Of a DNA stretch of 64,000 bases, positions 11,345 to 52,224 are shown in pieces (within the stretch, counting starts at the first letter, position 1; each line of letters begins with the position of its first letter). Under the pieces are notes generated by a model. That model had not been told where the DNA came from. It did not search any database and saw only the letters and a program-made list of their open reading frames with translations. The DNA is taken from positions 372,001-436,000 of the forward strand of contig KV748230.1 in NCBI GenBank assembly GCA_001692895.1, read 5' to 3'. Origin of the DNA: Cenococcum geophilum 1.58. Taxonomy: Eukaryota > Ascomycota > Dothideomycetes > Gloniales > Gloniaceae. The position numbers and the translations under genes were made by a program.

Positions 11345-11367
11345 AACTTTAACCGCCGGTTAAAGTT
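11345..11367 (+). repeat. Palindromic module, copy 1 (3' UTR of element A)
   Basis: 10-bp arms AACTTTAACC and GGTTAAAGTT around GCC, with flanks CTAACTAATTAGAT on the left and CTTAATATCT on the right. The 23-bp core is identical at 21009, 27585 and (reverse) 52202. It lies between the end of pol and the polypurine tract of A, in the opposite orientation to the other three relative to pol. Confidence 0.9.
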
Positions 11368-11532
11368 CCTTAATATCTTTGCGCCGCGCACGTGTACTAC
11401 CCGTCTCTCTATACGCAAAATTAAGACGCTCTTTCCCCTCTAAATTTTTTCCTTACTAAGGTTTTTTATGGGGTTTTATTAAGGCTTAAGTATATAAAGG
11501 ATTGGGGACGACCCTTTTAAAGGGGGGGGCAT

Positions 11533-11758
11533 TGTTAGGTAAAACCTAAGTAGATAGTTATATAGCCGTAAGGTACGGGCGACCCTAGGGCAACCTAGGG
11601 GTGACTCACCCGTGAGGCACGTGCTCTGTACATACCTAGGGAAAACCCTTCCTACCTCGCACACAGACTCCTCCTTTTTCCCTTAAGGATTTGTCTCTGT
11701 CTATACAATATACCTATTGTTCTATTATTAGACTTCCTATCTACATCCTTACCTTATA
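11533..11758 (+). repeat. 3' LTR of element A
   Basis: 226 bp, begins TGTTAGGTAAAACC. It is preceded by a purine tract of eight G residues (about 11522-11529) that would prime plus-strand synthesis. It differs from the 5' LTR only by transitions. Confidence 0.92.
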
Positions 11759-11763
11759 GGGGG

Positions 11764-11775
11764 TGTCCCGTAACA
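11764..11775 (-). repeat. Terminal piece of the split B-type LTR
   Basis: TGTCCCGTAACA completes the LTR broken at 4512 by element A, matching the end of the LTR at 53220-53609. A minus-strand polypurine tract follows directly (plus-strand GTACCCCCCC), which makes this the 3' LTR of the minus-strand element B. Confidence 0.8.
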
Positions 11776-14700
11776 GTACCCCCCCTTTAAACTTAAGCTT
11801 CTGCGAGATAGGGCTGTAGTAGTTCTAGGTGGAGTTTGTAAAAGTCTTTTATAGCTTATATAAGTCCTATAGAGTTAACGGGTTCCTATAAGGACTTAGT
11901 AAAGCCTCTCCATTTTATAAGATATATATATTAGCGTTTCCGTTTATTATACTTAATATTATTAATTCTTTTAATAAAGTACTTGTTCTTACCATCTACT
12001 TTAACTAGTAGGGGAGGGTCTTATATCTATTTAGGCAGGGCGTTTAATATAGGGGTAGTAGGGTAAAGGACTAACGTATGGAATACGGGGTAGATTTTAA
12101 CTATATTAGGGAGTTTTAGTTAGTAGGCATAAGGAGAGATAACCTTTTCAACCTTATAAGGGCCGGCGTTCTTTTAATTAAGTTTTTTAGTAGGTTATTT
12201 TATGTTTAGATTTCTTATATCTAGCCAGATAAAATTATTAATTTAGTAAGCTGGTGCTAGGGTTTATTTCTTATTCGCTGCGGCTTTATAGACAGATTAA
12301 GCCTATATTATCTTATTAGTAAGGAACTGTTATAGTTCCTCTATCTTCTCTATAAATTTATTTGCTTTTATAACTTATAAGGCGTAATAAGCGGGGTAAG
12401 GAATATTACTAAAGGGTTTAAAACCTATTTGTAGGTACTAGCCGTAATTGGCTAGGAATAAGAAGACTTTTGTAGTTTCCAAGACGGAATTATTTGCAGT
12501 AAACTTGGCGAATATGAGCTAGTTAATCTAGTTATCCTATAAATATAACATATATATCCGAATATACTATTCTATTATAGCATTTATATATTCCATTTAG
12601 CTATCCGTTTTTAAGTAATAAGTAGTAGATAATAGTGCTTTAATGCGAAGTTAAGTAGTTAGTTCTTTTTAGAATACTAAGATAAACTAGCTGCCTTTAT
12701 TAGAGATAATTGTTTTAGGGAGTCTATAGAGTTTCTATATGTAATCTAGGAATAGTCGGGCAATAGTAGGCGTTAATATATTAGGGCAGGCGATTAAGTA
12801 TCTTATCTTAGATAGTTAGTCTATAACTACTATAATATTCGTACAGCCTCTACTTTTAGGAAGGTTAATAATAAAGTTAATTAAGATATCCTTCTATCTT
12901 CGGTCCGGAATAGGTAGTGGCTTTAAAAGACCGTTATACGTCTTATGCGAGGCTTTAGCTCGTCGGTAGGTGTGGTAGCTAGAGACGTACCTTTATATTA
13001 TATTATACATATTTAGCTAATAATACTCCCGTTGGAGTAGTTCTAGGGTCTTTTCTTAGCCTAGGTGGCCGGCGATAGGTAGATTATATACGTATTTAAG
13101 GAGTTTAAGCTTAAGCTTATCGCGATTAGGGATAACTAGACGGTTCTGGTAATATAAGCGGTTTCTATAAGCTTTGCATTTACTTAAAGAAATCTTTTTA
13201 GAGCGTCTAATGCTATCTTATATTAGCTTAAGCGTCTCTTAAATAAACTTGTTATTTGGGTATTTATTAACTATAATCTGTTTAATTAATTAATTAGTTA
13301 TTTCAAGGACGTATACCATAAGATCTTTAGTAGGAGGGTTAAATAGTTTAGGGCAAAGTAGGGTCTGATTTTAGTAAGAGCGCGCTTCTTTTAGGGCTGG
13401 CGCGTCTTGTAAGCGTTAGGTTAGGGTATTAGGCTTTTAGCCTTAGACGCCTAAGCGGTATATAATTAAGAATTAGAAATAAGATAGATATTTTAACTAG
13501 CGGGCCTAATAATGACTTAGCTGTTTCGTAGTTGTAAAGTATTATAGGTTCTTATGGTTGCTAAGGACCTTAATTAAAAATTTAGCGCCTTCTAGTTTGG
13601 GTTGCTATTATTTAAAATATCTAATAATAGCTAATAATTCTTTATTGTAGATCTTATAGTTATATTCGGCTAGGCTTAGTCGTTTTAAGAAGTATACTAT
13701 AGGGTGTAATACTCTATCCTTATTATATTAAGATAGGATGCCTCTAGTAATATAGTTAGATGAGTCGGCTTCTATAACACTTACTTAGTTTAGGTTAAAG
13801 TATTAGAGTATAGGCACAGTAGTAAACATAACCTTTAGATAGGTAAAGGCCTTCTTACATTCCTTATTAAAGATAAAGACTTTATCCTTTTAGGTTAGAG
13901 CTATAAGGGGTAAAACTAGGGCGGAGAAGTTATTAATAAACTGTTAGTAGAAATTAGCAAATCCTATAAAGGCTCTTATATCCTTAACATTCTCGGGTTC
14001 TTGCTAGTTTACAATTGCTTTAACTTTCTTTAGGTCTATTTATATAGTATTTATAGAAATAAGGAGTCTAAGGTATAGGACTTCCGTTTTATAGAACTCG
14101 CATTTATCTATATCTAATTATAGACTAGCTTCGTGCAGGGCTTATAAGATAAGGTTAATATGTTTCTAATATTTAATTAGGTTATTACTATATATTAGGA
14201 TATCGTTAATATAAGTAGTATAGAAGATATCTAGGTAGGGGCGTAGGGTGTTATTTATATAATGTTGAAACGAGCTTAGAGTATTTATAAGGCTAAAGGG
14301 CGTTACTAAGTACTTAAATAGTCCATATCGGGTACGAAATATAGTAAGCTATTTATCCCCTTTTATAATGCGGAGACGGTTAAATATAAAGATAATATTA
14401 AGCTTTATATAGTAACGAGCCTTACTTAGTTAGTTTAGCGTCTCTTATATTAACGGGATCGGATATTAGTTCTTAACGGTAACAGCGTTAAGAGCTTAGT
14501 AGTCTATATAGAAGTATAGACTGCTGCTAGGTTTCTTAATAAAGATTACTAGTACGGCTATAGGCAACGAGCTTGCTCTAATAAATCCTTTACTTAGGTT
14601 CTTGTCTAAATACTTTTATAGTACTTAAAGTTTATTTTAGAATATCCCGTATAAGGGTCTAAATCCGGGCTGCTTTCCTTCTTTAAGTATAATCTTATAG

Positions 14701-16082
14701 TTATATAGTTGGTGTTTTAGTAGCTTATCGGCTTCCTTTTATAAGAATGCATTTAGGCGATAATAATACTCTATTGATACCTTTATGGCAGGGTTAGTGT
14801 GCTTCTTTAGTGCTAAGGCCTTTTTAATATCGGCTATTGTAATAGTAAAGATTGTATGCTTGGGTTTCTTAGCAAGTTACGCTAGTAGGGTAGCTCTAAT
14901 TATGTAGATATTTAGGGTGCCGAGCTCGCTTAGATTGTCTATAGTTTCTTATTTAGGTTTAGTATTAGGTATAGAGTTAGTATTAGATTTGGGTTCGGGT
15001 TCTTTAAGAATCCTTTTTATGGTAGAATACTAGTTCTTTTAGTATTTTTGTATATGGAGCTTAAGCTTTTGCTTGGCTTGGGACGGTGTAGTACTTAGTA
15101 ATGACTTATGGAATTCAGTAGAGTTTTCAGATTGTTAGTGGAATTTAGTAGAGTTCCTAGGTTGGTGGAATTTAGTGGATTCCTTAGGTACGGGGTAGAT
15201 AGTCGTGGAAATTTTAGACTGGTGGATTATAGTAGATTTTTTAGATTTTAGTTCTAGGTCTAAGCAGCGAGTTATAAGGCACTTCTGCTTATAACGGGAG
15301 GTAGTAAATAGAAGCTTAAGGTTGTTTTAATTAATAGTTACCTTATATAGCTTTATTTAGTGTTGTTTAAGGATTACTAAGTGACCTAGGGTGGTAATAA
15401 AAAGTTTAATTAATTCTTTATGGTTTAGGTATTGGAGTCTTAGGAATACTACATAAGTAATACGGCCTAAGATGGTGCGTTTACTATTAAATCCAAATAC
15501 GTTAATATGCTGGTTAAGGGGGGTTAGGGTAAAACTATTATCTTACGTAAAGATCTTGTTAATAAATCCTATACCGCTAGCTCCTGTATTAATTAGGATT
15601 CGAGCGTTAGCCTATTAATTATTCTGCTAAAGACGGTAGTTAATGGTTATACTACGGTCCTAAGAGTTAGAGTTTCTGACGTTAAATGCGTTTAATAAGA
15701 TCCTATAGTAGAGCTGTCCTGGAGAGCGACTTAGCTCCAAAACCTTCCTTTTGGAGGTAATTAGGGTAGGTCCTAGGTAGATATTAATCTAGTATAATTA
15801 TAGGGTATCCTATACGTTCCTAGCTAATATATTCTTTAAGAAACGTGCGGCTTAAAAGGAGGTTAAGAAGTTAATAACTTAGAGTACTAGCTTACTACTA
15901 AAATATATAATGTTAATAATAATATAGAAGTTAAAGTTATAATTATCTTTAAGGGTAAACTTAAATTGGCTAGGGGACTTCTGGTTTATTTAGTAGTAAT
16001 AATAGTACTTTATAAGATGCTTAATTGCATTAACCTTAACTTTATAGCCTACTCGCTAAAGAACCCTAAGTAATTAATAAAC
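11776..16082 (-). mobile_element. Ty3/gypsy chromovirus B, body (5' part lost), broken
   Basis: Minus-strand fossil read from high to low coordinate: protease/gag side about 15250-16080, RT about 13900-14600 (catalytic-loop region near 14190-14230), RNase H about 13500-13900, integrase about 12450-13400, chromodomain about 11800-11960, polypurine tract at 11776-11785 and then the split 3' LTR. There is no palindromic module in its 3' region, unlike A, C, D and E. Its 5' LTR is not present in continuity; the element stops at the ambiguous patch at 16083. A second copy of its 15280-15760 segment lies at 52550-53030. Dozens of breaks. Confidence 0.82.
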
Positions 16083-18881: not shown

Positions 18882-20650
18882 CCTATAAACTTTTAATTAA
18901 GTTTCTTTAAGGGTCGTTAAGTCTTTAGGTTTTATATATTTAGGTAAACTATATTACCTTCCTTAAAGTCCTATACAGGAGCTCGTCCTTTGTTTATATG
19001 CTATTCCTATACTATTTAAGCGTATACTAATTTACTTTCTAATAGTTCTATTAACTGCTTTATTTAATTAGCGAAGTTATACGCATTAATTAGTTAAATC
19101 CTCTTAATTATAGGTCCTGTTATATTAATTTTGGGTTATAGTTTAAATCTAAGTTAAGGGTTTTATCTGTAGGTTGTGTAGAACAGCGTTACGCCTATTA
19201 ATTTATTTCTCGTATTATTTGCAGTAAACTTAGCTAAAGGTAGCCACTTTTCCCAGTTATCTTATAGGTAGAAGCAGTATATTTATAGGTATTATTCTAT
19301 AATTGCGTTTATAATTTTAGTTTAACTATCTATCTCTGAATAAAATATAGTTAAGAGTCGTATTTATATACTTAATTATTTATATAGGGCTTACCAGAAG
19401 TCTAAAATAAACTAGCTTCCACAGTTAGATATTATTAAATTAGGAAGTCCGTATAGCTTAAATATATACTTAATAAAACATTTAGCTACTAATATTGTAT
19501 TAATTAAGTCTATAGGAATTATATATTGCATTTTTATAAGATGGTTAATAACTACTATAATACTTATAAACCTATTACTATTAGGCAGGTTAACTATAAA
19601 GTTAATTAAGATATCTCGCCATCTTTATATTAGAATTGGCAACGGTTAAAGTACTCCTTGCTTCTTTATATAAGAGGTCTTCCCACACATGCACATTCTA
19701 TATACTCGAACGCATTTTCTTATATAGTCGTGCATTATAGGCTAGTAGAATTCGTAATTAATTTACAATCCGTTCGTTAGAGGCGTTAGTAGGTAAGTTC
19801 TATAATTGTTATATTAATAAGTTAGGCTTCTAATTAAGTTTACTAGGTTAGTACGTAATCTTAAAGTCAAATTATAAGAGGTATTCAGCCCAACAAATTT
19901 GGCGTTGCGGTAATTGCTTTATAGTTATTAAGTACTATAGGTTTTTATAGTCCGTTAATACGCGTATTAGGAATAGCGATCCTTTAAATTCTAGACGCCA
20001 TTATTTAAAATATCTAATAATTGCAAGCAGTTCCTTATTATAAATCTTATAGTTTAATTTAGCAGGGGTAAGTTTCTGGGAGAGAAAGGCTGCTAGGCGT
20101 AGCTCGCCGTTCTTATTATATTGCAATAATACTCCTCCTAGTACATAATTAGACGAGTCTATTTTAACAATATATTTAAGGTCCGGATTAAAGTAGATAA
20201 GAATTAAAGCAGTTATAAAATAATATTTTAGGTTGTTAAAAGCTTGTTTATATTTAGTAGTTTATTTAAATCTTATATTCTTCCTTATTAAGTTTACTAA
20301 TAGCTAAATAATTTTTAAGAAGTAATTAATAAATTAATAATAGAAATTTACAAATCCTAGAAATCCTTAGATGTTTTATATACTACTAGGACTTTCCTAG
20401 TTTATAATTATAGCAATTTTCTTAAAGTCTATTTTAATTCTATTATAGGATATAATTAGGCCTAAGTACGTAACTTCGGACGTGTGGAACTTGTATTTCT
20501 TAATATCGCATTATAAGCCCGCGTCTTATAGGCGTTTAAGGACTATTTAGACGTGCTTCTAATACTTAAAACGCGAAGACAAATAGATTAAAATATTATT
20601 AATATACGTGGTAATAAATATATTAAGGAATTTGCGAAGCGTATTGTTAA
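18882..20650 (-). mobile_element. Ty3/gypsy element F, left part (integrase to RT), broken
   Basis: Minus-strand fossil. The integrase C-terminus starts at 18882, cut there by the Copia LTR, with the integrase core about 19450-19800, RNase H about 19850-20300 and RT to 20650. The RT reading breaks at GTTAA (20646-20650) and resumes after the same GTTAA at 40958-40962, which frames element D. The RT alignment with element B is smooth across the join. Dozens of breaks. Confidence 0.82.
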
Positions 20651-20844
20651 TATTATAGAATAGAGGCAGTGGCTACAGAGCGTATGTATTCAAGAAGTCT
20701 ATAAGACGTTACGTGATTAATTGTAAGGGTCGAGGGCATAAGGAGGTAATATACCTACGCGTAGCTGATATAAGCTATACGCGAGGTATATATAAGAGCA
20801 TAGGGCTCTCCTATAGAGGCCCCTAAGGTAGAGTTTTATAACAC
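20651..20844 (-). repeat. 3' LTR of element D
   Basis: 194 bp, matching 40775-40957 along its length. Followed at 20845 by CTACCCCCCC, the complement of a polypurine tract, which fixes the minus orientation. A third, cut copy lies at 46470-46555. Confidence 0.85.
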
Positions 20845-21008
20845 TACCCCCCCTTTTATAAAGGCGGAGCTCCGGTAACGCTATAGTTACTATATATATA
20901 TAAAAGGGACACTTAAGGTATAGAAAAGAAGAAAAGGGGGGTATTGCTAAAGGTTTAAAGCAATGTTATATAATAAGGCTTGGCAACTAAGAATCCAACT
21001 AATTAGAT

Positions 21009-21031
21009 AACTTTAACCGCCGGTTAAAGTT
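21009..21031 (-). repeat. Palindromic module, copy 2 (3' UTR of element D)
   Basis: Same 23-bp core as at 11345. Flanks AACTAATTAGAT on the left and CTTAGATATCTTAAC on the right. It lies between the chromodomain end and the polypurine tract of D. Confidence 0.9.
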
Positions 21032-21039
21032 CTTAGATA

Positions 21040-24000
21040 TCTTAACAATATTCCGGTTACGTAATTATACTTTACCGCAATCTAACGCAATTTAACGGTG
21101 ATTTGCCCTTACGTAGTAATATATAATGGTTTAAGTCTATAAGGGCTCCTATAGAGGATTAGGTATAAAATCTCTGCTTAGGCCTAGTTTCTATAAGTTC
21201 GCGTAGTAAAAGTCGCTAATTAGATCCTTTATATTTTTAAAGTCTTCCTATAGTTACTATTCTGGCTAATCTATATTAAATCCTATATATATAGCTCTGT
21301 AGTAAAGCCGTTGTCCTTTACCTTTGCTAAAGTATTTAGAGTTAATAATTTGTTTAATAGTCTACTCCTTATAGTTCTTATCTTTATTCTTATCTTAGAT
21401 TAGTACTAGTAGGGGTTTAGGCTATATCTGCCCTAGTAAGGGGTTAGGCTAATAAAGGTGTAGTAGCTATAGGTAAAATACGGGCTATATCCCACGGGTA
21501 GTTAGGGTAAGTAGGAGTTTTAGCTTATATATAGCTTCCCTATTAATAACTTATTTAATTAAATAGGGGCCGAGGTTTTTATAATTAAGTAACTTTATAG
21601 GCCTCTATATAGAGATATTATATATATTTAGCTATACCTAGTCACTAACACGTATCTCCGGTAGTGGCGTTTTATAATAGTTAGTAAAGTAGACTTACTT
21701 TACTTAAGCCCAGGCCATTTCCCCCTTATAGTAATTAAGTAGGTTTTTTATTTAGTCTGTATATTGGTTAGTAAGTAGTATCTTAAGGCGTTTTTTATAT
21801 AGCAGTTTCTTATTAATTGGTTCTAGTGGCTCTATACTAAATTAAGGGTAATAACCCTTATTTACAAAGAACAGGGTAAGTCCTATAGTGGTTAAGACGT
21901 AGTTATTAGCTGCGAATTTACCTAGTAGGAGGTAATTTACTTAGTTATCTTAACTATAGGCGACTACCTATTATAGGTACGCTTTTATACTGGTATTAGC
22001 ATTTTTTAGTTACTTAGTAGTTTTATAATAGAAGGATATAAATATCTTAACGGAGATGCTAAGGCGTTAGTAGATTCGTCTCTATATATTAGAGTTAAAT
22101 TATATACCTTAGTCGGACGTAATTAAGTTAGGTAACCCATATAGTTAGTAAACTTCGCAAAAAAAGGCGTTAGTAACGTCGCTAATAGCTACGCCTTTAG
22201 TTAGGACGTAGTAGCGCTCTTTTATAAGTCGGCATATTATTTTAAGGATATTCTTATAGGTACGGCCGTGTTATTTATAGTGCGGTAGGTTAATAACGAA
22301 ATCTATAGCAATATCTACCTATGATTATATAGGTACTAGTAGAGGGTGCAGTAGTCCTTAGTACTTTATATTAAAGGCCTTAGCGCGCTTATAACTGTAG
22401 TAGGCGCCTATAAAGCGTTTAACTAAGTCTATTATTTTTAGCTAGAAGTAGTATTAGCTAAGAAGCTTATAGGTTTCTCTTTTACCTAAATAGCCGCTTA
22501 ATTAGAGGTTACAGGCCATTTAAATTAGTTGCCGTTATAGATTTTTTTAAGTTAGGGATAAATAGGCGGCCTCTATAATAGAGCCTATTCTCTTTTACTT
22601 CTAAGGCTGCTATATTAATCTAGCCTAAGCTTTAGAGGTTAGTAGGTAGTATATAGGCGCTAGCAGTCTTTACGGCAATAAGTTAATATAGTAATAAGTT
22701 AACAGAAGTATTATATGCTCTAGTAATAAGCTCGTTAATTTTAGGAGTAACTTTAGTTTTATAGTATAAAGCTAAGGTATAGTTAGCTCTATTATAGGTA
22801 ATATGCCTAGGGCTAAATTTTATACTTTTAGGATTGTTTATTGTTAGAACTAATTATAAGGGTGATCTTTAGACTAAGGAAGGTCTTATAAGTAGCATAT
22901 TAGGCCATTAGATTTAGTACCTTATACTCCTAGTCTATATATAATTTTAAAGTTAAAACTAAAGAGGAACTTGTTCTAATATGCTTAGTATTAGTTTAAC
23001 TACTTTATAGTTATAAAGTACTTAAGGTTGCAATAGTTTATAAGGACTTTAGTTAGCTAGTTAAACTCTACTAAGGAGAGTTCTAATTAGAATTCTTTAA
23101 ACGCTTATACAATTATCCCTTAGCACGTCAGGGTCCAACGAGTAAGTGATCCGTGCGGGAACACCGTTTTTAAAAACGCATAAATACCTACCGCAATGCC
23201 TTCTAATCGTGCTAGGTTTTCTGCAGAAAGGATAAGTGCTAGTAATCTTATATTGAGTGACTCAACTTTAAAGAATAAGCTTATATATTAAAATACTATA
23301 GAGTTTGGCCTCTATTAAAAGCTTCGTATTCCTAAGTACGGGCGTTAAATGCAGGTCAATTGATTGGCTGGATCCTATCGATAACAATTAGACCCGAATT
23401 GACGTGCTAAGGGATAAGGAGTTCTTTATTATAGATCTTATTGTTAAAGTCTTATAGTATAAGCTTAGACAAGTAGAATATAACTAGGTAAAGGAGACCG
23501 TTATTACCTATTTAGGAAAGGACGCCTGCGTTAACATAGTCTAAGGAGTCGGTTTTAAAATAGAGTTATTATCTTGGTGTAAAGTATGCTAGGATAGGTG
23601 CTTTAGTAAAGGCATTTTTAAGGTCTTAAAACGCCTTCTTATATTTAGGCGTCTAGGTAAAGCGTAGGTAAGTTTTTCTTCCTTTTATAAAAAGGCCCTT
23701 TATTTGCATTATTGCTATAAGTAGTGCTACTACGCCTAAGAAGTTATATATAAATTTCTAATAAAAGTTAGCAAAACTAAGGAAGGCTTATACGTCCTTA
23801 ATATAGTTAGGGGCTTGCTATTTAGTAACTATATATACCTTCTTAGGGTCTATATAGACACCTTTAGTAGTAATAATTAGTTTAAGGTATTTTACTTTTA
23901 TAACTAAGAATTCGCACTTCTTTAAATTAATATAAAGTCTTACGTCCCTAAGGCGCTATAGGACCTTTTAAATGTGCTCGATATACTTAAAAGGGTTACT

Positions 24001-25019
24001 ACTATAAATAAGTATATTATCTAGGTACATAGAGCAGAAGTTATTAAGGTAATCCTATAAGGCGTTATTAATATAGCCTTAGAAGGTGCCTAGGCCATTA
24101 TATATGCTAAAGGGTATAATAATATATTTAAATTAGCTAAAGCGTAATACGAATATAGTTTTCTATTTATTACCTTCCCGTATTTAAAGATAGTTAAAGG
24201 CGGCGATAATATTAAGCTTAGTATAGATTTTGGCTTAACTAAGCCGCTTAAGGGTCTTACGTATAAGCGGTACTAGGTATTAGTTTTTAATTATAATAGC
24301 GTTAAGTCCTCTATAGTTAACGTAAAATTAAATATCTTCTTTTAGATTTTTAGCGAGAAGGATAGGGGTAGCTACTAGTAATATGCTAGGACGAATAAAT
24401 CCTTTATTAAGGTGCTCGTTAATATACTTTTTTATAACTAGAAGTTCGTCCTTTAATATTAAGTAGGATCTCTTATAAGGTAGCATTTTCCTTATTTAAT
24501 ATTAATAGTATAGTTATTAGGTTATTATAGGGGAGTATATCTACGCCCTTTTATAAGTATATATTAATAAAGTTATAGTACCTCTTAGGGAGGAGCTTAT
24601 GGAGTTCTTTATTGGTAAGTCCTTTTTTAAGCTTTATAAACTTCTTAAAGTCTAAAGCTAAAAGTCTATAGAGTTCTATAGGGGCGTCGTTATCTAAAAG
24701 GTTAATTATATCTATTCTATTACTATAGAGGACATAGTCCTATTCTTTATTAAGCTTATATAGTTATAATTAAAAAGCTATAGTAACGGTTTAGCGTTTC
24801 TTATATACTATATAGTAGAAGGCCGCGGCACTTATATAGTGGTAATTAGTTATAGGTAGGGTAATAAGGGGTTTCTTAGGTTTATATCCTAGTAAGTAAA
24901 TAGAGGTAGCTAGGCTATGTCCTAGGCAAGTCTTTCTACAGTATTTAAAGTTAAAGGTTACTTCTTTTTTTCCCTAGTTAATAGCGGGGTTATATTATTT
25001 AAGCTAGCTTATTCTAAGA
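21040..25019 (-). pseudogene. pol region of element D (fossil)
   Basis: A chromodomain-like segment near 21190-21330, integrase, RNase H and RT are legible in gypsy order on the minus strand. The protease side ends at the LINE insertion. It is interrupted by a 299-bp MITE at 23116. Heavily broken. Confidence 0.75.
23116..23414. mobile_element. 299-bp MITE with TA target duplication
   Basis: Terminal inverted repeats TCCCTTAGCACGTCA and TGACGTGCTAAGGGA, the pairing continuing imperfectly inward to GGGTC/GACCC, with TA on each side (23114-23115, 23415-23416). Removing it and one TA restores continuous RNase H-region sequence of element D. TA targets are typical of the Tc1/mariner/pogo superfamily. 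It keeps normal CA/TG content, so it inserted after most RIP of its host. No coding capacity. It shares its outer bases with the MITE at 46300. Confidence 0.85.
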
Positions 25020-27141: not shown

Positions 27142-27328
27142 TGTTATAGTGCTATAATAAAGTAGATTAAATAACTACGTTGTGGTATAAAGAGGGGAAG
27201 AAGGTGGAAAGGGGGTATTATATATAAATAGTAGGGCCGGCCGCTAAGTCGCTAGTGGTGGGCTAGCTAATAGTAGGGAATAGTACAAGATAGTATAAAA
27301 TAGTATGCGTTAGGTCAGTGCCGTAATA
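27142..27328 (-). repeat. 3' LTR of element E
   Basis: 187 bp, the partner of 33870-34056. On the minus strand it starts TATTACGGCACTGACC, adjacent to the purine tract. Confidence 0.9.
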
Positions 27329-27584
27329 GTACTCCTCTCCCCTAGATGGTTTAGTCCCTAAACTAAATAGATAACTTAAAAATAGGCAGTATATGGGGTT
27401 GCCTATTTTCTACCGCAAAGATATTAGTTCCGCTTACCGCCCTTAACTAAGCTAATAGCGATTTTCTATGCCGGGCATAGAAAATCCTAATTGGTTAGTT
27501 TAGTAAGTAAGGTCGGCAAAACTCTATACCGCCACCTAAATCGGTCCGTATAGCGTTTCTTAGTAAGAATTTAGCTAATTAAAT

Positions 27585-27607
27585 AACTTTAACCGCCGGT
27601 TAAAGTT
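27585..27607 (-). repeat. Palindromic module, copy 3 (3' UTR of element E)
   Basis: Same 23-bp core. Flanks GCTAATTAAAT on the left and CTATAATATCTTAACC on the right. It again sits between the chromodomain end and the polypurine tract. Confidence 0.9.
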
Positions 27608-27699
27608 CTATAATATCTTAACCACCATAAATTTTAATGCGGTGGTTGGCTGTGACCTTAGTATGACTTTTTCTTATCTTATACCTAGTCTGGGGGTTT

Positions 27700-30600
27700 T
27701 AGCTTCTTAGGGTATTGCTTATAAAAGCGCTATATAGCTTATTTATAACCCTTTAGGTCTTCCTTTAGCTGCTAGGTTGTATCCTTATAATATTTCCATT
27801 TAATCTTATAAGTTAGGCCCTAGGGGTCTTTATCGTGTATATTAAGGATTTTCTTAAACTCCTATTTGTCTTCTATATTACCGTTATTATCTCTCTCTAC
27901 TACTCGTCTTTATATATTACGGCGCTCTATAATATTAATATTTACTTAGCTAGGGATCTCTTTAGCAGCCTAGAGGCGGACCTTAGATATATAAAAGAAT
28001 TTATTTACTTAGATGTGGTCCGGGAGGTTTACTATAACTACCCCTTAGTATACTGCGAGTACGGGGTACAAGCCGTCCTATTTGTCGTCCTATTTCTTCT
28101 TAGGTTTATTTATCTTTATATTTTCTAAGCTAACTATAACTATATTACCTTTATAGAATAACGCGCTCTTATCCCTATGGGTATTAGTATTGTTTTTATA
28201 GCGTTGCTATAAAATCTAGGCTAGGGCCTTAAGCTGTATTAATATCTGCTTAAAGCGGTTAGCCACAGAGTTTACGCAAAAGAACTCCTTCTTTGCTTAT
28301 ACTAATAGTGTTAATAGGTAGGGGCCAGCAGGCTTAATTCTGAGGCGAGGGTTAAAGCCATAGTTTATAAAAAACGGGGAGATGCCTATGCTTTTGTTAA
28401 CTTAGTTATTTATAGCAAACTTAGTAAGCAGTAGGTAGTTAACCTAGTTATCCTATATAAAGCTAATAAAAGTATAAAGGTATTTATTTATGGCGGCGTT
28501 AATAATTTTGGTTTAGCCGTCTGTTTTTAGGTGTTAGGCTAAGCTTAGTTATAAGGTTGTTTTAAGGCGTTTACTTAGTTGTTGCTAGAAGTTGCTAATA
28601 AATTATATACCGCGATTAGAGATAATTATGCTTAGTATACCGTGGAGCTTATATACGTTATTAATAAAGCTATTAACTAACTCCTTTATTAAGAGTCCTG
28701 TTACTAAAATAAGGTGTTACATTTTAGTTAGGCGGTCCATAATAATAAGGATATATTCGTATACCTTGCCGTAGCGTTAGTATACTAGTAGCGTTATAAT
28801 ATAGTTAATTGAGATATTAGTCTATAGGCGGGCGGGTAATTCTAGTAGCTTTAGGAAACTAGGCGGGGCAGAATAGGGGGTCTTAGTGCGAAAGTATAGG
28901 GCACAGTCTTTAACAAAGGTAGCCGTAAACTGGGAGATTTCTAGCCACTAGTATATTCGGTTTAAAAGGTTAAGAGTTTTAACCCAGCTAGGGTAATTAG
29001 CGGGGCCGCTACTATAAGAGTGATAGGTAACTTCTAGGTAAAGGTCTAGGGCATTAGGGACAAAGAGATATTAGTGGAAGTAGATCTGTCCGTTAATAAT
29101 ACTATATTCTAACTTATTGCAACAGAGTAATTTCCTAATTTTCTTTAGCTAACGGCGAGCTTTTTAATTACGCAGGGCTACCACTATATCTCTTATAAGT
29201 TCGTTCTCCTAGTATCCTAGCTAGATTAACTTATCTAGTGACTTTTTAGCTATTTTAGGGTCTAAAGCGGCTATAAACTCTGCGTTGTTAGAGTTATGGG
29301 ACTTATATAGTAATTCTTCTAAGATTGTAGGGTTAACTTTCTAGGGCGGTATAACGACTTAGGCTTAGTGGCGGAGGCGTTTATTATTAGCGTCCTTAGG
29401 CCTTATTTTTAGTAGCCGGCTTAGGGCGTTAGGGAGCGTAGCTTTGCTGTTAGGTCTATATATAATTATAAAGTTAAACTATAAAAGGAACTCTGCCTAC
29501 CAGACTTAGCGCTAGTTTAGCTGCTTAGTAGTTATAAACATCTATAGGTTTTTATAGTCGGTAATAATTTTAAACGGCTCCTTAGTCCCTTATAGCTCAG
29601 AACACCATTCCTCTAAAGCCTTAACAATAGCTAGGAGTTTTTTATCGTAGATCTTATAGTTATATTCCGGCGCGGAGTGCTTTATAGAGAAGAATGCGAC
29701 CGGTTTTAATTTTCCGTTATTATTATACTGGAAAAGGACTCCGCCGGAAGCCTAATTTGATACATCTGTCTCTATCACTGTTTTCTTTATATAGTTATAG
29801 TATACTAGTACTGGTGCTAAAGTAAAGGCTCCCTTAAGGGCCTTAAACGATTTAGCTTGTTTTGGTCCCTATAGCTATCTAATATCCTTCTTTAGAAGTT
29901 TTGTCATAGGTATAGTAATAGCAAAATAGCCTTAGATAAATCATCAGTAGAAGTTCGCGAAGCCGAGAAATTGTTATAGTTCTTTAATTAATATTGGGTC
30001 CTTNTATTCCTATAAGGCCTGTATCTTCTTAGGGTCTATAGTTATGCTATTAGTTAAAATAATTAAGCCAAGGTATTTTGTTTTAGTAGAGTAGAACTTA
30101 GACTTATTAATATTAATCTAAAGTCTAGCATTGCCGAGTTTTTGGATGACTTTATTTACATACTTAGTATACTTGGCGCGTGTTTTAGAAAAGATAAGGA
30201 CGTTGTTAAGGTAGGCAGTACAGTAGTTGTTAAGGGCGTTATATAGAATATGGTTAATATAGTTTTAGAATATAATAGGTGCGTTATAGAGGCCGAATAG
30301 TGTAACTAGTATCTTATAGAGTCTAAACTGGGTAATAAATGCTATAAGCTATTTATAGCCCTCCGTAATCCGGATCCGGTTAAACGCAGCAATTATATTA
30401 AGTTTAATAAAGTACTTAGCGCTATAAAGTGCATTAAGTGTCTCGCGGATTAGTAGCAGTAGGTATTAATTCTTAATAGTAACTGTATTTAGGCCTTAGT
30501 AGTTATAGTAGATTTATATACCGCCGCCAGGCTTAGTAGCGAGGAGGAGTAGTGCGGTAGCTAGTAAGGTTAATTCGCGGATAAAACCCTTATCTAGTAT

Positions 30601-31740: not shown

Positions 31741-31764
31741 AGGACGGGGCTTATACTTCTAAAG

Positions 31765-31983
31765 CTAGGGTATACCTAGGATAATTAGGGTAGTGGGCGA
31801 GAGTTTAGTAATAAAAAAGAGTATGGCTTCAGTATGGAGGCTAATTAACATTTGGGCGGTAAAGTAGTCCGTAATAAGCGAAGTTAAAATGCTGTCTGCG
31901 AGGCGCAGTGGCCTAGGTGCTAGCAGCTTCTTAGTTATAACGTTATACTTTCTTACAATAGACTTTACGTTGGTAAATGCCAT
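31765..31983 (-). pseudogene. Retropepsin-like segment of element E (fossil)
   Basis: A short open stretch whose residues PRPLRLADSILTSLI and FFITKLSPTTLIILGIP match the pattern of gypsy aspartic-protease regions upstream of RT. It is only a piece of a dead polyprotein and not a gene of its own. Confidence 0.6.
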
Positions 31984-31999
31984 TATAGTACTATTAGAG

Positions 32000-33780: not shown

Positions 33781-33869
33781 GGTCGCAATTGCTTTAGGGT
33801 AGAGGTTAATTGGCTAGGGTATAGGGAATTAGTGATTGCGATGGGGCGCAAATTAAAGATACCACAAAC

Positions 33870-34056
33870 TGTTACAGTGCTGCAATGAAGTAGACTGAAT
33901 AACTATGTTATGGTATGAAGAGGGGAAGAAGGTGGAAAGGGGGTATTGTATATAAATAGTAGGGCCAGCCGCCAAGTCGCTAGTGGTGGGCCAGCTAATA
34001 GTAGGGAATAGTACGAGATAGTATAAAACAGTATGCGTTAGGTTAGTGCCGTGACA
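33870..34056 (-). repeat. 5' LTR of element E
   Basis: 187 bp. On the minus strand it starts TGTCACGGCACTAACC and ends TGTAACA. It keeps more CG/CA pairs than its partner. Confidence 0.9.
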
Positions 34057-36909: not shown

Positions 36910-37682
36910 ATAAGCTCGGACCCCTAGAACTCGGTTACCCCCCGAACTCGGACGGGTTTCCCATACAAAACGTCAGTTTTCTACCTCTATAAAAACAGTA
37001 TTAGTAATATATTATTAATTATATAAAGTTCTAAACTTAAAGCTTATATAGTCCTAAGTAAATTTATAAAAAAAAAATTTAAAAAAATGTCTTTATGCGC
37101 CTAAAATATTAAATAGTTTATTTTACATAGTAAAATGCCCCCTTAAAAAAACATACTATACTATTTTAATAAATTTTTTTAATAATATTTTTTAAATATA
37201 TATAGCTATGCGACACCAGATTTTAATTTTTATAGCATTTATATATATAGGCTTTTAAAATATAGCCGGTTTAAAAATCCCCTATATAAAAAACCTAAAT
37301 TTTTATATAGGGGATTTTTAAACCGGCTATATTTTAAAAGCCTATATATATAAATGCTATAAAAATTAAAATCTGGTGTCGCATAGCTATATATATTTAA
37401 AAAATATTATTAAAAAAATTTATTAAAATAGTATAGTATGTTTTTTTAAGGGGGCATTTTACTATGTAAAATAAACTATTTAATATTTTAGGCGCATAAA
37501 GACATTTTTTTAAATTTTTTTTTTATAAATTTACTTAGGACTATATAAGCTTTAAGTTTAGAACTTTATATAATTAATAATATATTACTAATACTGTTTT
37601 TATAGAGGTAGAAAACTGACGTTTTGTATGGGAAACCCGTCCGAGTTCGGGGGGTAACCGAGTTCTAGGGGTCCGAGCTTAT
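36910..37682. mobile_element. 773-bp perfect palindrome (fold-back MITE) inside the LINE
   Basis: Left arm 36910-37292 and right arm 37300-37682 are reverse complements over all 383 bp as far as I compared them, with a 7-nt centre ACCTAAA. The ends read ATAAGCTCGGACCCC; a TA at each edge (36911-36912, 37680-37681) fits a TA-duplicating Tc1/pogo insertion. The sequence beyond 37682 resumes the LINE C-terminus (GTGGTGTTCTGCCCC), so the insertion is real in the assembly. The arms keep CA/TG pairs and are not visibly RIP-mutated, so it is young. The end sequence resembles the start of the pogo-like fossil at 44001. No coding capacity. Confidence 0.9.
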
Positions 37683-37930
37683 ATGTAGTGGTGTTCTGCC
37701 CCAGATACACTGCTGGCCAGTCAGAAATGTATTACTATGCTGGAATATCCTTATATAAAGAGCTCCTAACCAAGCTAAAGGCTACTAAGGTAGTTATGGA
37801 CTGGTTTATATAGACAAACCTCTTACTATACCTTTTATTTGCTAGAGAGCTGGCTAGGGTAAAGAGAGGAGGCTAGGAAGTGCTTTAAGAGGCGGAGGAT
37901 AAATACTATAGGGATAGCAGAATATGGCAG
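37683..37930 (+). pseudogene. LINE ORF2, C-terminal end after the palindrome
   Basis: VVLFCPRYTAGQSEMYYYAG and KELLTKLKATKVVMDWF continue the protein broken at 36909. The CP pair completes the CxCG...CP cysteine motif found at the C-terminus of this LINE group. The frame ends inside the first units of the downstream repeat array. Confidence 0.65.
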
Positions 37931-38275
37931 AATTTTACAGATAGTAACCTGGTAGAAGTTGGTAGAACTCTAGCAACCTAGTAGAATTTGGTAGAACTTA
38001 TTAACCTAGTAGAATTTGGCAGAATTTGGCAACCTAATAGAAGTTAGTAGAATTTTAGTAACCTAATAGAATTTGGCAGAGTTTTGGCAACCTAATAGAA
38101 TTTAGCAGAGTCTTAGCAACCTAATAGAATTTAGTAGAATCTTAGTAACCTAGCAGAATCTAATAACCCGATAGAAGTTGGCAGAACTTTAGTAACCTAG
38201 CAGAATTTAATAGAATCTGGTAACCTGGCAGAATTTGGCAGAGGTTAATATCCTAATAGAACTTAATAAAACTTG
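37915..38275 (+). repeat. Tandem array of 26-33-bp units in the LINE 3' region
   Basis: About 11-12 units, each containing AACCTA.(C/T)AGAA and GGCAGAATTT variants. The first units overlap the end of ORF2 and the rest form the 3' UTR. Unit variants differ mostly by transitions. The same CAGAACTT-type motif appears in the LTRs of elements B and C. Confidence 0.85.
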
Positions 38276-38690
38276 GTAAGGCATAGAGCTATATACGTTA
38301 ACGTAGATGCAAATAACGGAACCTTCTACACTACTACTAGCCTTATGGGCCACCGGCCTATGCCCTACCTGGATAACCAGAGCAGCCAGGAATGGAACCT
38401 AGGCCCTAGCTATATACCCCACCGGACAGACCTAGGAGTACGCATTAAGATGGCTTTTTTATAGCGCCTTAAAGAGACGTCTACTCGTGCTTGGTAGTTA
38501 CTAACCAGAAGAGAGGCTATATAGGCCGTATAATAAGCCATATAGGCCGTATAACAAGAGAAGGAGAGGTTTTATCCGGCCCCAGTGGTACGGTTCCCCT
38601 CTTATACATGTATATATATATACCTATATAGACCCGCTGCATGGACCCTAACGGGAGCCGCAATAGCGTAATTGAATATTATAACATAAC
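38276..38690 (+). other. LINE 3' untranslated region
   Basis: Less mutated, no clear gene; the 63-codon frame starting at 38273 has no family features. It contains two near-copies of TATAGGCCGTATAA (about 38520-38565). It ends GAATATTATAACATAAC directly before the 15-bp target duplication. Confidence 0.6.
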
Positions 38691-46469: not shown

Positions 46470-46555
46470 TATTATAAAATGGGGGCAGTAGCTATAGAGC
46501 GTATATATTTAAGGAGTCTATAAGATATTACGCGATCGATTATAAGGGTTAAGGG
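46470..46555 (-). repeat. Truncated D-type LTR
   Basis: The first 86 bp (plus reading) match the LTRs at 20651 and 40775. It is cut at 46555, exactly where element C begins, and the missing half does not appear after C. Confidence 0.75.
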
Positions 46556-46771
46556 TGTTACGGCACTGGCAGAACTTCGCACCGGCAAGTTGCCACAGAT
46601 TGCCGTATATTGCGGTTACGTGACGCGAAGATCTTATAAAACATTAAATGGCGCTGCTCTTCTTCTCCTTTCCTTTCCCTAGCTTTAGATTCTTGTTTAT
46701 AGACAATCCAATTATATAGGCTTGCGCGTCCCCTTACTATGCCCATGCCTTAATTAATTAAGTCGCTAATA
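46556..46771 (+). repeat. 5' LTR of element C
   Basis: 216 bp, starts TGTTACGGCACTGGCAGAAC. It has one CAGAACTT unit where the 3' LTR has several. The 62-codon minus-strand frame here is an LTR accident. Confidence 0.88.
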
Positions 46772-46979
46772 TTATCTAAAGCTAACTCTACTCTTTCTTC
46801 CTAAGAAGGAACTTAAATATATCTATAAGAATATAGAATAGGACCCTAAGGACATTACTAGGACCATAAAGACAGGACCTAAAAGAAAAGAATAAAACCC
46901 TAGGAAAGGACCTATAAGATATACATAGACTAGAACTCCTAAAGAAATTACCTAAAATTACCTAACACCCCTACTACCA

Positions 46980-48170
46980 TGCCACGAACTATAGTAGTAG
47001 GTAAAGCAGCTACAGGACCCTTAAATACTTTAGACGAAGAAACAATTAACGTTTTAACCCCCTAGGCGGAGCTTACAGCTACTAATACCGAAATTAAATA
47101 ACTATAAGAGCTGCTTAAAGCTAAAGATACCCCTATATCTAATAATAAGTCATTATTAGATAACTAAAGACTTGCTATAGTCCTTTAGGCCCTATCCTAG
47201 CGCCTTAGTAGATCCACTAAGGCCTATATAACACCGAAGCGGTTAGTAAAGGTTATAAACCCCCTGCTACTTATAGACGGAACTAACCCTATATTTAATA
47301 ATTAGAAGCTTTAATTACGGGATAAGCTTAAAGTTAATATAGACTACTTCCGTAACGCCTAAGCCAGAATAGCCTATATCTTTAGCTATACTGGCGGAGA
47401 CACTCAGACGTATCTACGCCCGCAATATACTAAAGACTTAGCAGACCCCTTTATTTCTAAAGAAGAAATAATTAAATACTTATCTTCTATTTATAAAGAC
47501 CCTTTTAAAGTATAAAACACCCGCCTTAGCTATAAAAGCCTAAATATAAAAATAACGGAGACTTTTTTAGCCTTTTAAACCTACTTTTTATACCTAGCCG
47601 GACAGGCCTAGATCCCCTAAGAAGACCTACTACTAAACCTCTTTAATAAGCTTACCCTAGACCTATAGCGGGCCATATTACTAGCTTATACTATAGCATA
47701 GACGTTAAAGGAACTTATGGACTATTACCTAGCTATTAATTAAGGCCTCTGTTAAATTAAGGCACGTGCTAATTAGCTAAAAACTAGAAACCTTATAAAC
47801 TAGGCTATAAATACTATAAGTATGGCCTATAGTGCCCTAGTATAATCGGCAACTCCTATAGTTAACCCAGTAGCTAGCTACGTAGCTACCCCTACTACGG
47901 GCCTAGTGTATACCCGGCCTATATATAGCAACCCCTATATATAGGCCCTTAGCAATTAAGGAGCTTACTTCTTATATAGTTAAATAAGCTACCCTATAAG
48001 GGCCTGCCTAATAAAGGTAAAGATAAACGAGGTCCTATTAATTTAGGAGGATAGTGCGGAGCTAGAAAAAGAGGAACCCTAAAGGAAGACTCCTCTTTAG
48101 GGTTAAAAGGGATTAATATGTTACATATTAATCTAGGTCGGCTAGTTAGTAAAAGAAGCTGCACTATCCC
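46980..48170 (+). pseudogene. gag region of element C (fossil)
   Basis: The frame opens with MPRTIVVGKAATGPLNTLDEE and runs through capsid-like sequence. It fits the chromovirus gag place before protease. Broken many times. Confidence 0.65.
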
Positions 48171-48179
48171 TTATACTTT

Positions 48180-51100
48180 ATTTCGTAATAAATATTAAGT
48201 TTTAACCTCTATTTTAGCTAACTTAGGAGTAAATACCTTTACCTTAATTAATATAAAGTGCGCTGTAAAACTGGCTGACTTTTTAAATACACCCTTTAAA
48301 GAACTGCCTAAACTAATCCCTATTTATAGTTATAACGGATAAATAGGACTACCTATTATAACTATCTTATAGATCTACCTCTACGTTAATAGATAAAGGT
48401 AGTATAACATCCCCTTCCTTATTACGGACTTTAGAAGCTATAATATAATCTTAAGGAGAAAATAGCTAGCCTATTTAGGCTTATAGCTTAATATATAGAA
48501 TAGGCAGCTTATCTAGCCCAAAACTATACCCCTAACGCCTTCCTTTATAAAAGAGATTAGTATTATAATAGAAAACCTTATACAGCTATAGATAGACACC
48601 ATTTACTAGGCCAATGCGACGCGTAGAGACTAGGCTTTTAAGAAGGATATATAGTTTAATCCGCAACGGATCTGTATATTACGTCGCCCTAGACTACCTA
48701 TATTACACCACCCGCACTAAAAACTTAGGAAGTTAGTAGTAGCCTAACTAAGTCCCTAATAGAGAACCTAGGCCCTACGCAGCTATAAAGGAAGGCTAAG
48801 GATATTAGATAATATACTAAACTAATAAACTAAAAGGATAACTTACGGAAAATAGAACGTGAGCTAAGGAAGACTATAAACCCTATACCGTAAAATACGG
48901 CCTAATAAATATCCGTAAAGAAACCCACGGACCTTCTACTAGTTAATATTTACTATATTAGTGCTATAGGATTCTACTAGAACCTGGTTTAGCTTAATAC
49001 CGTTACCTTTATAACTAGCTTATACAAAATTAATTAAATAATTAAAAAGAAAGAAGCCCTAGCTTAAGAGAAAGGCAAGCTTATAGATAAGGAGCTAGTA
49101 AAACGGAAACTACCCCATTAATACTAGAAATTTAAAGACACCTTCTCTAAAGCAGCGTCTAATATACTCTTGCCTTACCGACCGTACAACTATAAGATTA
49201 AAATTAAGCCGGATAAGGTAGTTACCCTTAGCTATAGCCCCCTTTAATAGTAATCTACTACCGAATTATAGGCTATAAAGTAGTATCTTATTAATAACCT
49301 AGATAAGGTCTTTATTAAGCCTAGTTAAGCCCCTTTTAACTTACCTATTCTTTTTACTAAAAAGCTAAATAGAGGACTTTGTTTCTGTATTGACTACTAT
49401 AAGCTTAATAATTTAACCCTTAAAGACCGCTACCCACTACCTTTACTTAATAAAACTTTGGCCTAAATAAGTAGAGCTAAGATCTTTACGAAGCTTAATA
49501 TCTACTAGGCTTTTTACTAAATTAGGATAAACCCTAAATTAGAAAACCTTATTATATTTTGGACCTATTACAGAATATATAAATATAAAGTACTGCCTTT
49601 TAAACCAACTAACGGACCAGCTATATACCAACAATATATAAATAATGTACTATTTAACTACCTTAATAACTTCTATACAGTATACCTAGATAATATTATA
49701 ATCTACTCTAAAAATAAACTAGAATATAAAGAGTATATCTATAAAGTCCTATAACGGCTTTAGGAAGCTAGCCTCTAAGCTAATATTAAGAAGTTAGAAT
49801 TTAGTGTTAAGCGTATAAAGTACTTAGGGTTTATTATTAGTATAAACGGAATTAAGGTAGACCTAGAAAAGACGGCTGTAATTAATTAATAGGTACCCCT
49901 AAGGACCGTAAAGGGGTTATAGTTATTCTTAGGGTTCTGTAACTTCTACTAACGCTTTATTAAGAACTATAGTAGGATTACCCGGCTACTAAGCCTACTT
50001 ACATATAAGGACTAGCCCTTTTACTTTAACACTATATATAGGCAGGCCTTTAATAAGCTTAAGAAATGACTAGTCTCTACTCCCTTACTCGCCTACTTTA
50101 ATCTAAAACGGCCCTTAATACTAGAAACCGATGCCTTAGATAGTATTATAGCTAGCGTTTACTCCTAAAAGTAGACAAATGGAGAATAGCACCCTAGTAC
50201 TTACTATTTAAAGACTATAGTAGATGCTAAGCTAAACTACCCAATTTACGACAAAGAAATACTGGCTATTATCTCTAGCTTTTAGCACTAGTAAGCCCAA
50301 CTAGAAGGCATCCCTAAGTCTATCTAGGTAGTTTCTAATTATAAGGCCTTAGAATATTTTATAATAATAAAGGCCCTTACGGCCTAATAGGCGCGCTAGG
50401 CGAATACCCTATCTTAGTTTAACTTCCTAATTATATATAGGCCAGGCGTCACTAACCGTATAAACGCTCTTATAAGGCGTAAACAGGATATAAATAACTA
50501 GATAGCTATAAAGATCTTATTATAGACCTAAGCGCTACTATAACTAGAGTACCTTAACTCCTAAATACGGGCAGAACTAAATATAGACTCTTTAAATGCC
50601 GAGATATGCCCCGTTAACTCTATAGAACTAAACTTTATTAATAAACTGCTGCAAGTAAACCGTACGGCCCCTTCTTTATAAGAGTACTATAAAAAAGCAA
50701 AGAACGTTTCTAGCCTATAGTTCCTTAAAAGTGGACTGCTTAAGCACTATAAACGGCTAGTAGTAGTAGAGGAACAGAACTTACGGACTTAGCTTATTAC
50801 CAAAGCATATACCTAGGCCCCTACGGCCTACCCTAGAAAAAATAAGACCTATAGGATTATTAGCAACCGCTACTACTAGCCTAGAATAATTATAAATATT
50901 AACCGCTATATACGGAACTGTAATAACTGTTATAGGTTTATAATTCCATAAGATAAGACCCTAGGACTATTAAAACCCTTCCTAATACCCAACCGCCTAT
51001 AGTAATATATCTCTATAGACTTTTATAAGCTACCTTTAGACCGTAACGGATATAATATAGTTATAATCCTAGTTAACCGCTTCGGCAAGCGCCCGTTCTT

Positions 51101-52090
51101 AATTCCCTATTATAAAAATATTAATACTAAAAAGGCGGCCTAACTATATATCTATTACGTCTACCAAATTTACGGACTACTAGATACTATTATATCTAAC
51201 TATAAGCTGCAGTTTATATTAGCCTTTTAGAATAAGTTTACCTAGATCCTAGGTATTAAGCTAAAGCTTTCTATAGCATACTACCCCCAGATAAACGGTT
51301 AAACGGAGATTATAAATTAATACTTAGACTAGAGACTCTGGCCTTTTATTAACTACTTCTAGGATAACTAGGCTAAACTATTACCCTTAATAGACTACGC
51401 CCAAGCGACCCTACACTACAACTCTACCGGATTTGCCCCTATTTAACTAGAAATGGGCTACCTACCCTATATAAGCTTTAACTGGGAAAGACTAGAAGGG
51501 CCCTAGACTGTACGCGAAAAACTATCTTATAAGGAAGCCCAGCAGTACGCTAAGCGCTTAAAAGAAGCTTAGAAAGTAGCCTATATAAACCTAAAAAAGG
51601 CCTAGAAATTAATAGAATAGCAGGCGAATAAGTATAGGCGCGAGCCTAACTTTACTATAGGCAATATAGTCTAGGTTATAATAAAGAACTAAAAGATAGA
51701 ACGGCCTAGCCGTAAGCTAGACTATAAGATGGTAGGACCGTATAAGATTCTTAATAAAGTAGGCAACTTATATAAGGTTAAACTCCCAAACTTAATTAAA
51801 GTTCACCCTATCTTCTTACTAGATAAGCTATAGAAAGCTATAAATAACCTACTACCCGAACAAAAGAATAAACCTCCCCTGCTAATTTAAGTTAATAGCG
51901 ATAATAAATAGGAAATTAAAGAAATACTAGCCTATAAACTTATAAAGGGAACGTTAAAGTATTATATTAGTTGGAAAGGATATAACCTAGACCCTACTTA
52001 GTACCCTATATAGAACTTTATAGGTAGTCCCTATAAGCTTTAAAAGTTTTATAGCTGTTACCCTAATAAACCTAGACCGCTAAAGTACCT
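48180..52090 (+). pseudogene. pol region of element C: protease to chromodomain (fossil)
   Basis: RT, RNase H and integrase are legible in order. The chromodomain near 51935-52050 reads YYISWKGYN with the aromatic positions of the family. Heavily broken. Confidence 0.82.
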
Positions 52091-52201
52091 AGATAAGTGG
52101 ATAGAATGCTAGTATAACAAAGATAATAAGCTACTAGAAGAATATAAGGATAAAAATACCCTAGAAATTTCTTAGTTATATAAGGTGTTAAGATATCTAG
52201 G

Positions 52202-52224
52202 AACTTTAACCGGCGGTTAAAGTT
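52202..52224 (+). repeat. Palindromic module, copy 4 (3' UTR of element C)
   Basis: Reverse complement of the core at 11345, with flanks GATATCTAGG on the left and ATCTAATTAGTTAGATTC on the right. It lies between the chromodomain end and the polypurine tract. Relative to pol it has the same orientation as in D and E. Confidence 0.9.

Follow-up and report, generated by a model that had tools for sequence, protein, structure and literature searches.

Four gypsy-type (Ty3-type) retrotransposons in a 64,000-nt window of the Cenococcum geophilum 1.58 genome (contig KV748230.1, positions 372,001-436,000 of the forward strand; coordinates below are those of this whole stretch) carry the same small palindromic module ahead of their 3′ long terminal repeat (LTR). 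The module is a sharply bounded block of ~45-60 bp that is free of transversions between four diverged elements, referred to here as A, C, D, and E. Because of its position, its sharp edges, and its transversion-free conservation between carriers that are only 52-56% identical in their reverse transcriptase (RT) regions, a conserved cis element in the interval between pol and the polypurine tract (PPT) is well supported. As to its role, we favor, at a probability of roughly 0.4, a cis-acting hairpin of the genomic RNA, located in the 3′ untranslated region (UTR), which would serve in packaging, dimerization, or localization and would have been kept or exchanged across families.

At the center of the module lies a 23-bp core, AACTTTAACC-GSC-GGTTAAAGTT, and the claim of an earlier sequence-only reading of this DNA that it is identical at four sites was borne out by exact matches (Table 1). 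Here, the count of four compares with 0.05 expected, and none of 100 shuffles reached it, the highest giving two. In E, the core has GGC on the plus strand, and once read in module orientation the four cores do not differ. The core is moreover a perfect DNA palindrome save for its center base, with 11-bp arms on either side of it. By blastn, the six pairwise matches around the cores extend over 52-73 bp with 85-92% identity. In order, the module consists of a CTTRGYAAG inverted repeat (ending in C rather than G in element C), a 1-5-nt spacer, helix 2 (6-bp inverted arms with CTAA at the center), the 10-bp arms around GCC, and a less constant tail, in which ATATCTT is found in all four copies. 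The 10-bp arms, with their own 3-nt center, directly adjoin the 6-bp repeat with its 4-nt center. The flanks quoted in the sequence-only reading are those of E and, with one C for T, of C, but D has GCTAATTAAAT and ATAATATCTTAAC instead, and A has TTAATATCTTTGC on its right side.

Since repeat-induced point mutation (RIP) causes transitions only, we counted transversions as a fair test of conservation. In the LTR pairs of A (13 transitions in 226 bp) and D (19 transitions over the 190 bp compared) there are no transversions at all, so that only transitions have accrued since insertion and transversions therefore report older history; for the same reason, the similarity of the modules predates insertion and is not a product of RIP. 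Among all five gypsy-type pol regions considered (A-E), transversions separate the RT regions by 20-28% in the ten pairwise comparisons and by 21-28% in the six between carriers, and 1-5 of them remain in the ten pairs even when the comparison is confined to the best-matching 40 aligned RT columns. The module, on the other hand, is transversion-free over 59 bp (C-E), 46 bp (C-D), 45 bp (D-E), 44 bp (A-E and A-C), and 43 bp (A-D). In ungapped 10-bp bins, agreement runs from about -20 to about +40 of the core start, with near-random disagreement outside, and the four carriers thus do not make up a single family whose 3′ UTR is conserved throughout, the outcome that would have undone the original observation. 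Module pairs without transversions set against RT regions with 21-28% make both RIP survival and a single shared 3′ UTR poor explanations of the conservation. The 100% identity of the core is nonetheless somewhat flattered, as RIP may have made transition sites alike. Apart from the module, the cross-locus blocks that agree at the purine/pyrimidine level are LTR-related, otherwise duplicated, or simple repeats, among the 60 matches listed of 187 and with simple patterns filtered.

With regard to position, C, D, and E carry the module downstream of a chromodomain-like frame and upstream of the PPT (with Pfam support for the E piece only), in line with the claim that it falls between the pol end and the PPT in all four elements; in A, whose pol end was not found, the claim comes down to a core 165 nt before the 3′ LTR. 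The corresponding distances are 165 nt in C, 256 nt in D, and 77 nt in E, and the module follows the last pol-tail piece of E at 14 nt and the chromodomain-like frames of D and C at 65 and 146 nt, respectively. Relative to pol, the modules of C, D, and E agree in orientation and that of A is inverted, just as first described. When the sequence was scanned for an LTR-like start preceded by a polypurine run, ten sites came up. Five of them mark where the LTRs of A, B, C, D, and E start (a PPT and then an LTR start being found in each carrier), and the core occurs within 300 bp upstream in four of these five (A, C, D, and E; not B); the other five sites are unrecognized as LTR starts and lack the core. 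B has no 3′ UTR that could carry a module, because almost nothing separates its chromodomain-like frame (11796-11930, by eye) from its PPT and LTR start. All four cores fall in pol-PPT intervals that total 1197 bp, or 2.0% of the 59-kb block, which four independent random placements would achieve at 1.7e-7, a figure to be read with the intervals having been drawn after the cores were seen, the one in A having no known pol end, and the copies possibly sharing ancestry. The LTRs of the carriers do differ, as had been stated: blastn gave no match between those of different carriers, though those of D and E look similar over their first dozen bases.

Table 1. Coordinates and strands of the modules, related stretches, and host elements in the window.
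Feature	Positions	Strand	Remarks
Module in A	11316-11380	+	core 11345-11367; helix 2 11329-11344; CTTAGTAAG 11316-11324; same strand as A pol
Module in C	20979-21047	+	core 21009-21031; helix 2 20993-21008; C pol on minus strand
Module in D	27559-27622	+	core 27585-27607; helix 2 27569-27584; D pol on minus strand
Module in E	52187-52252	-	core 52202-52224; helix 2 52225-52240; E pol on plus strand
P2 palindrome in D	27456-27490	-	palindrome 27460-27486, 13-bp arms, 1-nt center; between module and 3′ LTR
Decayed P2 copy in A	11256-11290	+	decayed palindrome 11259-11290; other side of module; orientation to pol as in D
Tentative fifth module-like stretch F	62234-62283	+	diverged, imperfect palindrome; nhmmer E 0.022
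Element A	4513-11758	+	LTRs 4513-4738 and 11533-11758; PPT from 11519
Element B, 3′ part	11771-14640	-	3′ end ~11.79 kb; PPT at 11788; interrupted by A
Element C, 3′ part	20645-24500	-	3′ LTR 20645-20843; PPT 20847-20857; RT ~23714-24500
Element D	27142-34056	-	3′ LTR 27142-27328; 5′ LTR 33870-34056; PPT ~27332-27343
Element E	46556-52547	+	LTRs 46556-46771 and 52302-52547; PPT 52288-52298
Element E pol pieces		+	RT 49521-49751 (RVT_1); SH3 from 51714; chromodomain 51912-51998

Regarding the predicted folding, the core pairs 10 of 10 in all four copies, and this perfect hairpin, together with 3- and 4-nt centers that suit RNA hairpins, supports an RNA signal. In module orientation, helix 2 has 6 of 6 pairs in A and E, five and one C-A in C, and five and one G-U in D; in the pol sense, C gains a G-U and its helix 2 folds, and helix 2 forms in A and E as well. 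While the core hairpin is worth -8.8 kcal/mol, core-to-core duplexes reach -28.6 to -35.8, and the 60-nt modules are predicted to form self-duplexes (-32.8 to -41.4) that are, for all four, in the strongest 5% of 600 random 60-mers (5% point -32.4, 1% point -40.8, strongest -48.6), with the D module just past the 1% point. Moreover, the inverted A module is predicted to pair with the RNAs of C, D, and E over its whole length, at -69 to -87 kcal/mol. At the gathering score, Rfam gave no matches in the window. Complementarity between the 3′ region and the 5′ leader was dropped as a lead: E has an 11-nt match against 7-9 nt in body pieces, but A (10 nt; body pieces 8-10) and D (8 nt; 8-11) show no excess.

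Under the favored reading, the module would form a stem-loop in the genomic RNA, or pair with a second copy of that RNA, and in this way could mark the RNA for packaging, dimerization, or localization. Selection would then keep it in the elements, and it may have moved from family to family, probably through template switches among RNAs packaged together. As the core is almost its own reverse complement, the inverted copy in A would still form the same hairpin, and it could pair with the RNA of the other families as well. The earlier proposal of a conserved RNA hairpin stands as far as a cis element in the pol-PPT interval goes, and the hairpin itself is plausible, the symmetric DNA palindrome, the fold scores, and the pair counting given below being the grounds for going no further.

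Several observations weigh against an RNA hairpin. The inversion in A is awkward for a strand-specific RNA signal, and B manages without any module. In the pol-sense RNA of D, helix 2 contains an A-C and is absent from the predicted fold, the G-U being found on the other strand only, and the D antisense strand folds better (z -2.20) than the sense strand (-1.31); the facts of helix 2 in D and the duplex energies thus pull opposite ways. Overall, the fold z-scores for 81-96-nt stretches on the eight strands of A, C, D, and E are weak, running from -2.26 (E sense) to -0.34 (C antisense), and among the 60-nt hairpin energies (-11.9 to -14.4) only that of E passes the random 5% point (-14.0). The compensatory changes that were to be sought in the folded flanks gave no support either, since just one pair is changed on both sides and 112 of 500 shuffles are as good. 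We have dropped RNA covariation as evidence altogether: RIP hits both arms of a palindrome and yields symmetric changes on its two strands, which can fake covariation, and because such a symmetric mutator can create these changes in any palindrome, covariation in RIPed copies cannot decide. The known Ty3 dimerization palindromes, for their part, are placed at the 5′ end in the accessible portion of PMC11381356. Finally, there are four copies and they come from one locus.

As the main rival, a double-stranded DNA site would have the palindrome bind a dimeric protein of the host or element, in the manner of an enhancer, insulator, or silencer, irrespective of orientation. This would sit well with the near-perfect DNA palindrome, the inverted copy in A, and a conservation of sequence rather than pairing alone (no transversions in 43-59 bp). 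Protein-binding DNA sites of LTR elements are, however, usually found in LTRs or 5′ UTRs, whereas the module is between pol and the PPT, and both helix 2 and the CTTRGYAAG repeat have hairpin-sized centers, so that we regard a DNA site as doubtful, if worth keeping in view. Another unlikely account is that the module has no function and recently spread between families through template switching or gene conversion, the hairpin being simply a switching hot spot. Sharp edges of the block, the swapped order of the module and a second palindrome (P2) in A and D, and the recurrence of other short stretches (for example, TTGGCAGAACTT arrays) in several LTRs and repeats are all consistent with such a spread, yet it leaves unexplained why four carriers from diverged families hold the module in the same interval, and the remaining cross-locus blocks are of the other kinds listed above. 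We give rather low odds to a bolder version of the RNA signal, a cross-family recognition tag by which the RNAs of unrelated gypsy families in one genome would pair and co-package via the same palindrome and hence swap it; here, the inverted A RNA, antisense to those of C, D, and E throughout the module, might engage them in long duplexes, hijacking their packaging or triggering RNA silencing against them.

Insertion of a tiny mobile element at this site, the other option raised in the sequence-only reading, is disfavored and in our view very unlikely. The module is certainly short, repeated, and seen in both orientations, but by eye there are no terminal inverted repeats (TIRs) at its ends, and, with boundaries allowed between -45 and -12 and between +28 and +59, no two copies have a flanking direct repeat of at least 5 bp at shared boundaries (5-mer repeats: none in A, one in C, three in D, and one in E, none at boundaries common to two copies), while all four copies occupy the same interval. 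The module accordingly shows neither the TIRs nor the consistent target duplication of a miniature inverted-repeat element. A Helitron 3′ end (a hairpin followed by CTRR) was also rejected by eye, as the conserved block extends past any such end. That the module is a coding tail of pol, conserved as protein, is highly improbable: the D and E chromodomain frames do run into it and read a similar peptide (LRY..TLTGG), but C reads the like in a frame other than that of its chromodomain, A is inverted, and transversions are absent at all codon positions. Least credible, to the point of being negligible, is RIP survival bias or chance similarity. The caveat raised at the outset was half right, in that the core is now without CA or TG, and RIP could also converge diverged palindromes, cores included, at transition sites; survival bias, however, is contradicted by the transversion test, the 43-59-bp blocks agreeing at every purine/pyrimidine position in six pairs, and chance by the count of the core.

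Turning to known systems, the constitutive transport elements of simple retroviruses lie between the last gene and the 3′ LTR and act in RNA export through a stem-loop; they share the interval and stem-loop with the module but are longer and contain internal loops. The 3′ UTR of plant gypsy elements, the same pol-3′ LTR interval, is reportedly hypervariable and gives rise to satellite repeats (going by the title of Macas et al. 2009), whereas the module is one constant block. The nearest analog is the 'extended Conserved Hairpin Site' of the fungal GalEa Copia elements, 33-62 bp long and, in the accessible part of PMC5445492, well conserved between distant families in five species. Like the module, it is a short hairpin-forming block conserved between distant LTR-element families of one genome. 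In contrast, and as far as that part of the source goes, it belongs to Copia elements and directly follows the 5′ LTR in place of the primer binding site, while the module belongs to gypsy elements and lies 77-256 nt before the 3′ LTR. The GalEa pattern given there (CHSeq1 CTGATCAGT or CTAATTAGT, with CHSeq2 and an A/A mismatch) is also absent from the module: three modules read CTAATTAGA and that of D reads CTAATTAAA (CTAATTAG occurring 11 times in the window), and no matching CHSeq2 was found in them by eye. The module may perhaps work like the GalEa hairpin site, then, but is distinct from it. In yeast Ty3, according to the accessible portions of PMC11381356 and PMC4974528, the minimal RNA that transposes in trans includes a short 3′ stretch along with the 5′ UTR and some of GAG, and the packaging signals are not precisely defined. 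Ty3 and Ty1 thus resemble the present case in their cis-acting palindromes in genomic RNA and in 3′-end sequences needed for transposition in trans, but their dimerization palindromes are short, are located at the 5′ end, and in these portions of the sources none is described as common to several families. No description of the module was found in the open-license literature (titles and starts of abstracts), which is no proof of its being unpublished; the accessible parts of PMC11963269 and PMC3441728 hold nothing on it, and a short-string match to the palindrome led to one passage, a primer.

The second palindrome, P2, stands between the module and the 3′ LTR in D, and a decayed copy is found on the other side of the module in A, so the order is module-P2-LTR in D and P2-module-LTR in A. 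Since P2 is oriented to pol alike in both elements while it and the module have traded places, the 3′ UTRs of A and D are mosaics. Short arrays of the TTGGCAGAACTT type recur in the LTRs and repeats of different elements (37919-38279, 4365-4430, 52312-52360, and 53409-53465), another sign of small modules in common. In addition, 50 nt at 54641-54690 are self-reverse-complementary at the purine/pyrimidine level (80% at the base level). The exact degenerate core had no matches in viral and genome contig collections and the P2 pattern none in viral contigs, and relatives of the A RT piece (37 viral pattern stretches) and of the RNase H piece of a truncated gypsy element at ~19.2-20.7 kb (21 viral and 93 genome-contig stretches) were not confirmed in any instance, these collections being non-fungal and so of little weight.

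With a four-module nhmmer profile, a tentative fifth copy was picked up (F in Table 1), the next match being 47092-47122 (E 0.11). At the purine/pyrimidine level, it shows 7 transversions in 56 bp (as low in none of 200 shuffles) or 4 in 38 bp (9 of 200), and its fold z-scores on the two strands are -1.48 and 0.67. At its edge lies a ~2.9-kb element (59343-62234) with TIRs of ~45 bp that are 91% alike and with TA at both ends, by which duplication it is mariner-like; Pfam found nothing in its 166-aa frame. Joining the flanks of this inserted element did not better the score of the fifth stretch (E 0.06 versus 0.022). The stretch is upstream of a lightly mutated plus-strand frame (62900-64000) near the window end whose product, by eye, resembles a gypsy gag bearing a zinc knuckle; pieces of this frame had no Pfam match. 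We rest no conclusion on this copy.

The carriers are embedded in RIP-like DNA at 4-62 kb of the window (TA/AT 1.5-2.0, (CA+TG)/(AC+GT) 0.27-0.55, G+C 0.28-0.40), outside of which the G+C of the window ends is 0.53 and 0.50, and stops break every pol frame of the gypsy elements. The presence of RIP is in itself a pointer to a filamentous ascomycete. Of 11 stop-free pieces from A, C, D, and E, two pass the Pfam cut-off, one is weak, and eight have no match. Those that pass, an RT piece of E (RVT_1, 1.7e-8) and an RNase H piece of D (RT_RNaseH_2, 1.7e-13), place these elements in Ty3/gypsy; the A RT piece matches RVT_1 at 0.022, which does not reach the cut-off, and two further A pieces and two C pieces gave no match, though blastp relates A and C pieces to those of E and D. 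Near the pol end of E, Pfam reports SH3_Tf2-1 (2.5e-7) and Chromo (8.5e-4, below cut-off). The C pol-tail piece has no Pfam match for SH3 or chromodomain, the chromodomain-like frames of C (21194-21334) and D being recognized by eye only, and in A neither domain was found. Further pol fragments at ~19.2-20.7 and 41 kb have no recognizable 3′ end.

As for insertion sites, D is flanked by a GCTAA target duplication (its 3′ LTR beginning with TA rather than TG), and A by GGAGG and GGGGG, a probable 5-bp duplication. The 5′ LTR of C was not located. The two flanks of E do not match, showing no target duplication: its 5′ flank (46470-46558) is a C-type LTR remnant, and its 3′ flank (52548-53027) instead matches 15281-15760. 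Because these flanks do not fit a single insertion site, E may be recombinant. The window holds 27 N bases at 9499-9539 and further on, the first ten of which are in the A pol region. At 36910-37682, two perfectly matching 383-bp arms form an inverted repeat around 7 nt; this is unusual for a RIPed block and may reflect a fold-back in the assembly or a palindrome of very recent origin.

With its constant sequence in 3′ UTRs that otherwise defy alignment, the module offers a concrete and testable candidate for a packaging signal. After the GalEa site of fungi, it would be a second case of a hairpin conserved across families, here in gypsy rather than Copia elements and near the 3′ rather than the 5′ LTR. 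If confirmed, it would mean that competing retrotransposon families share or exchange their control signals.

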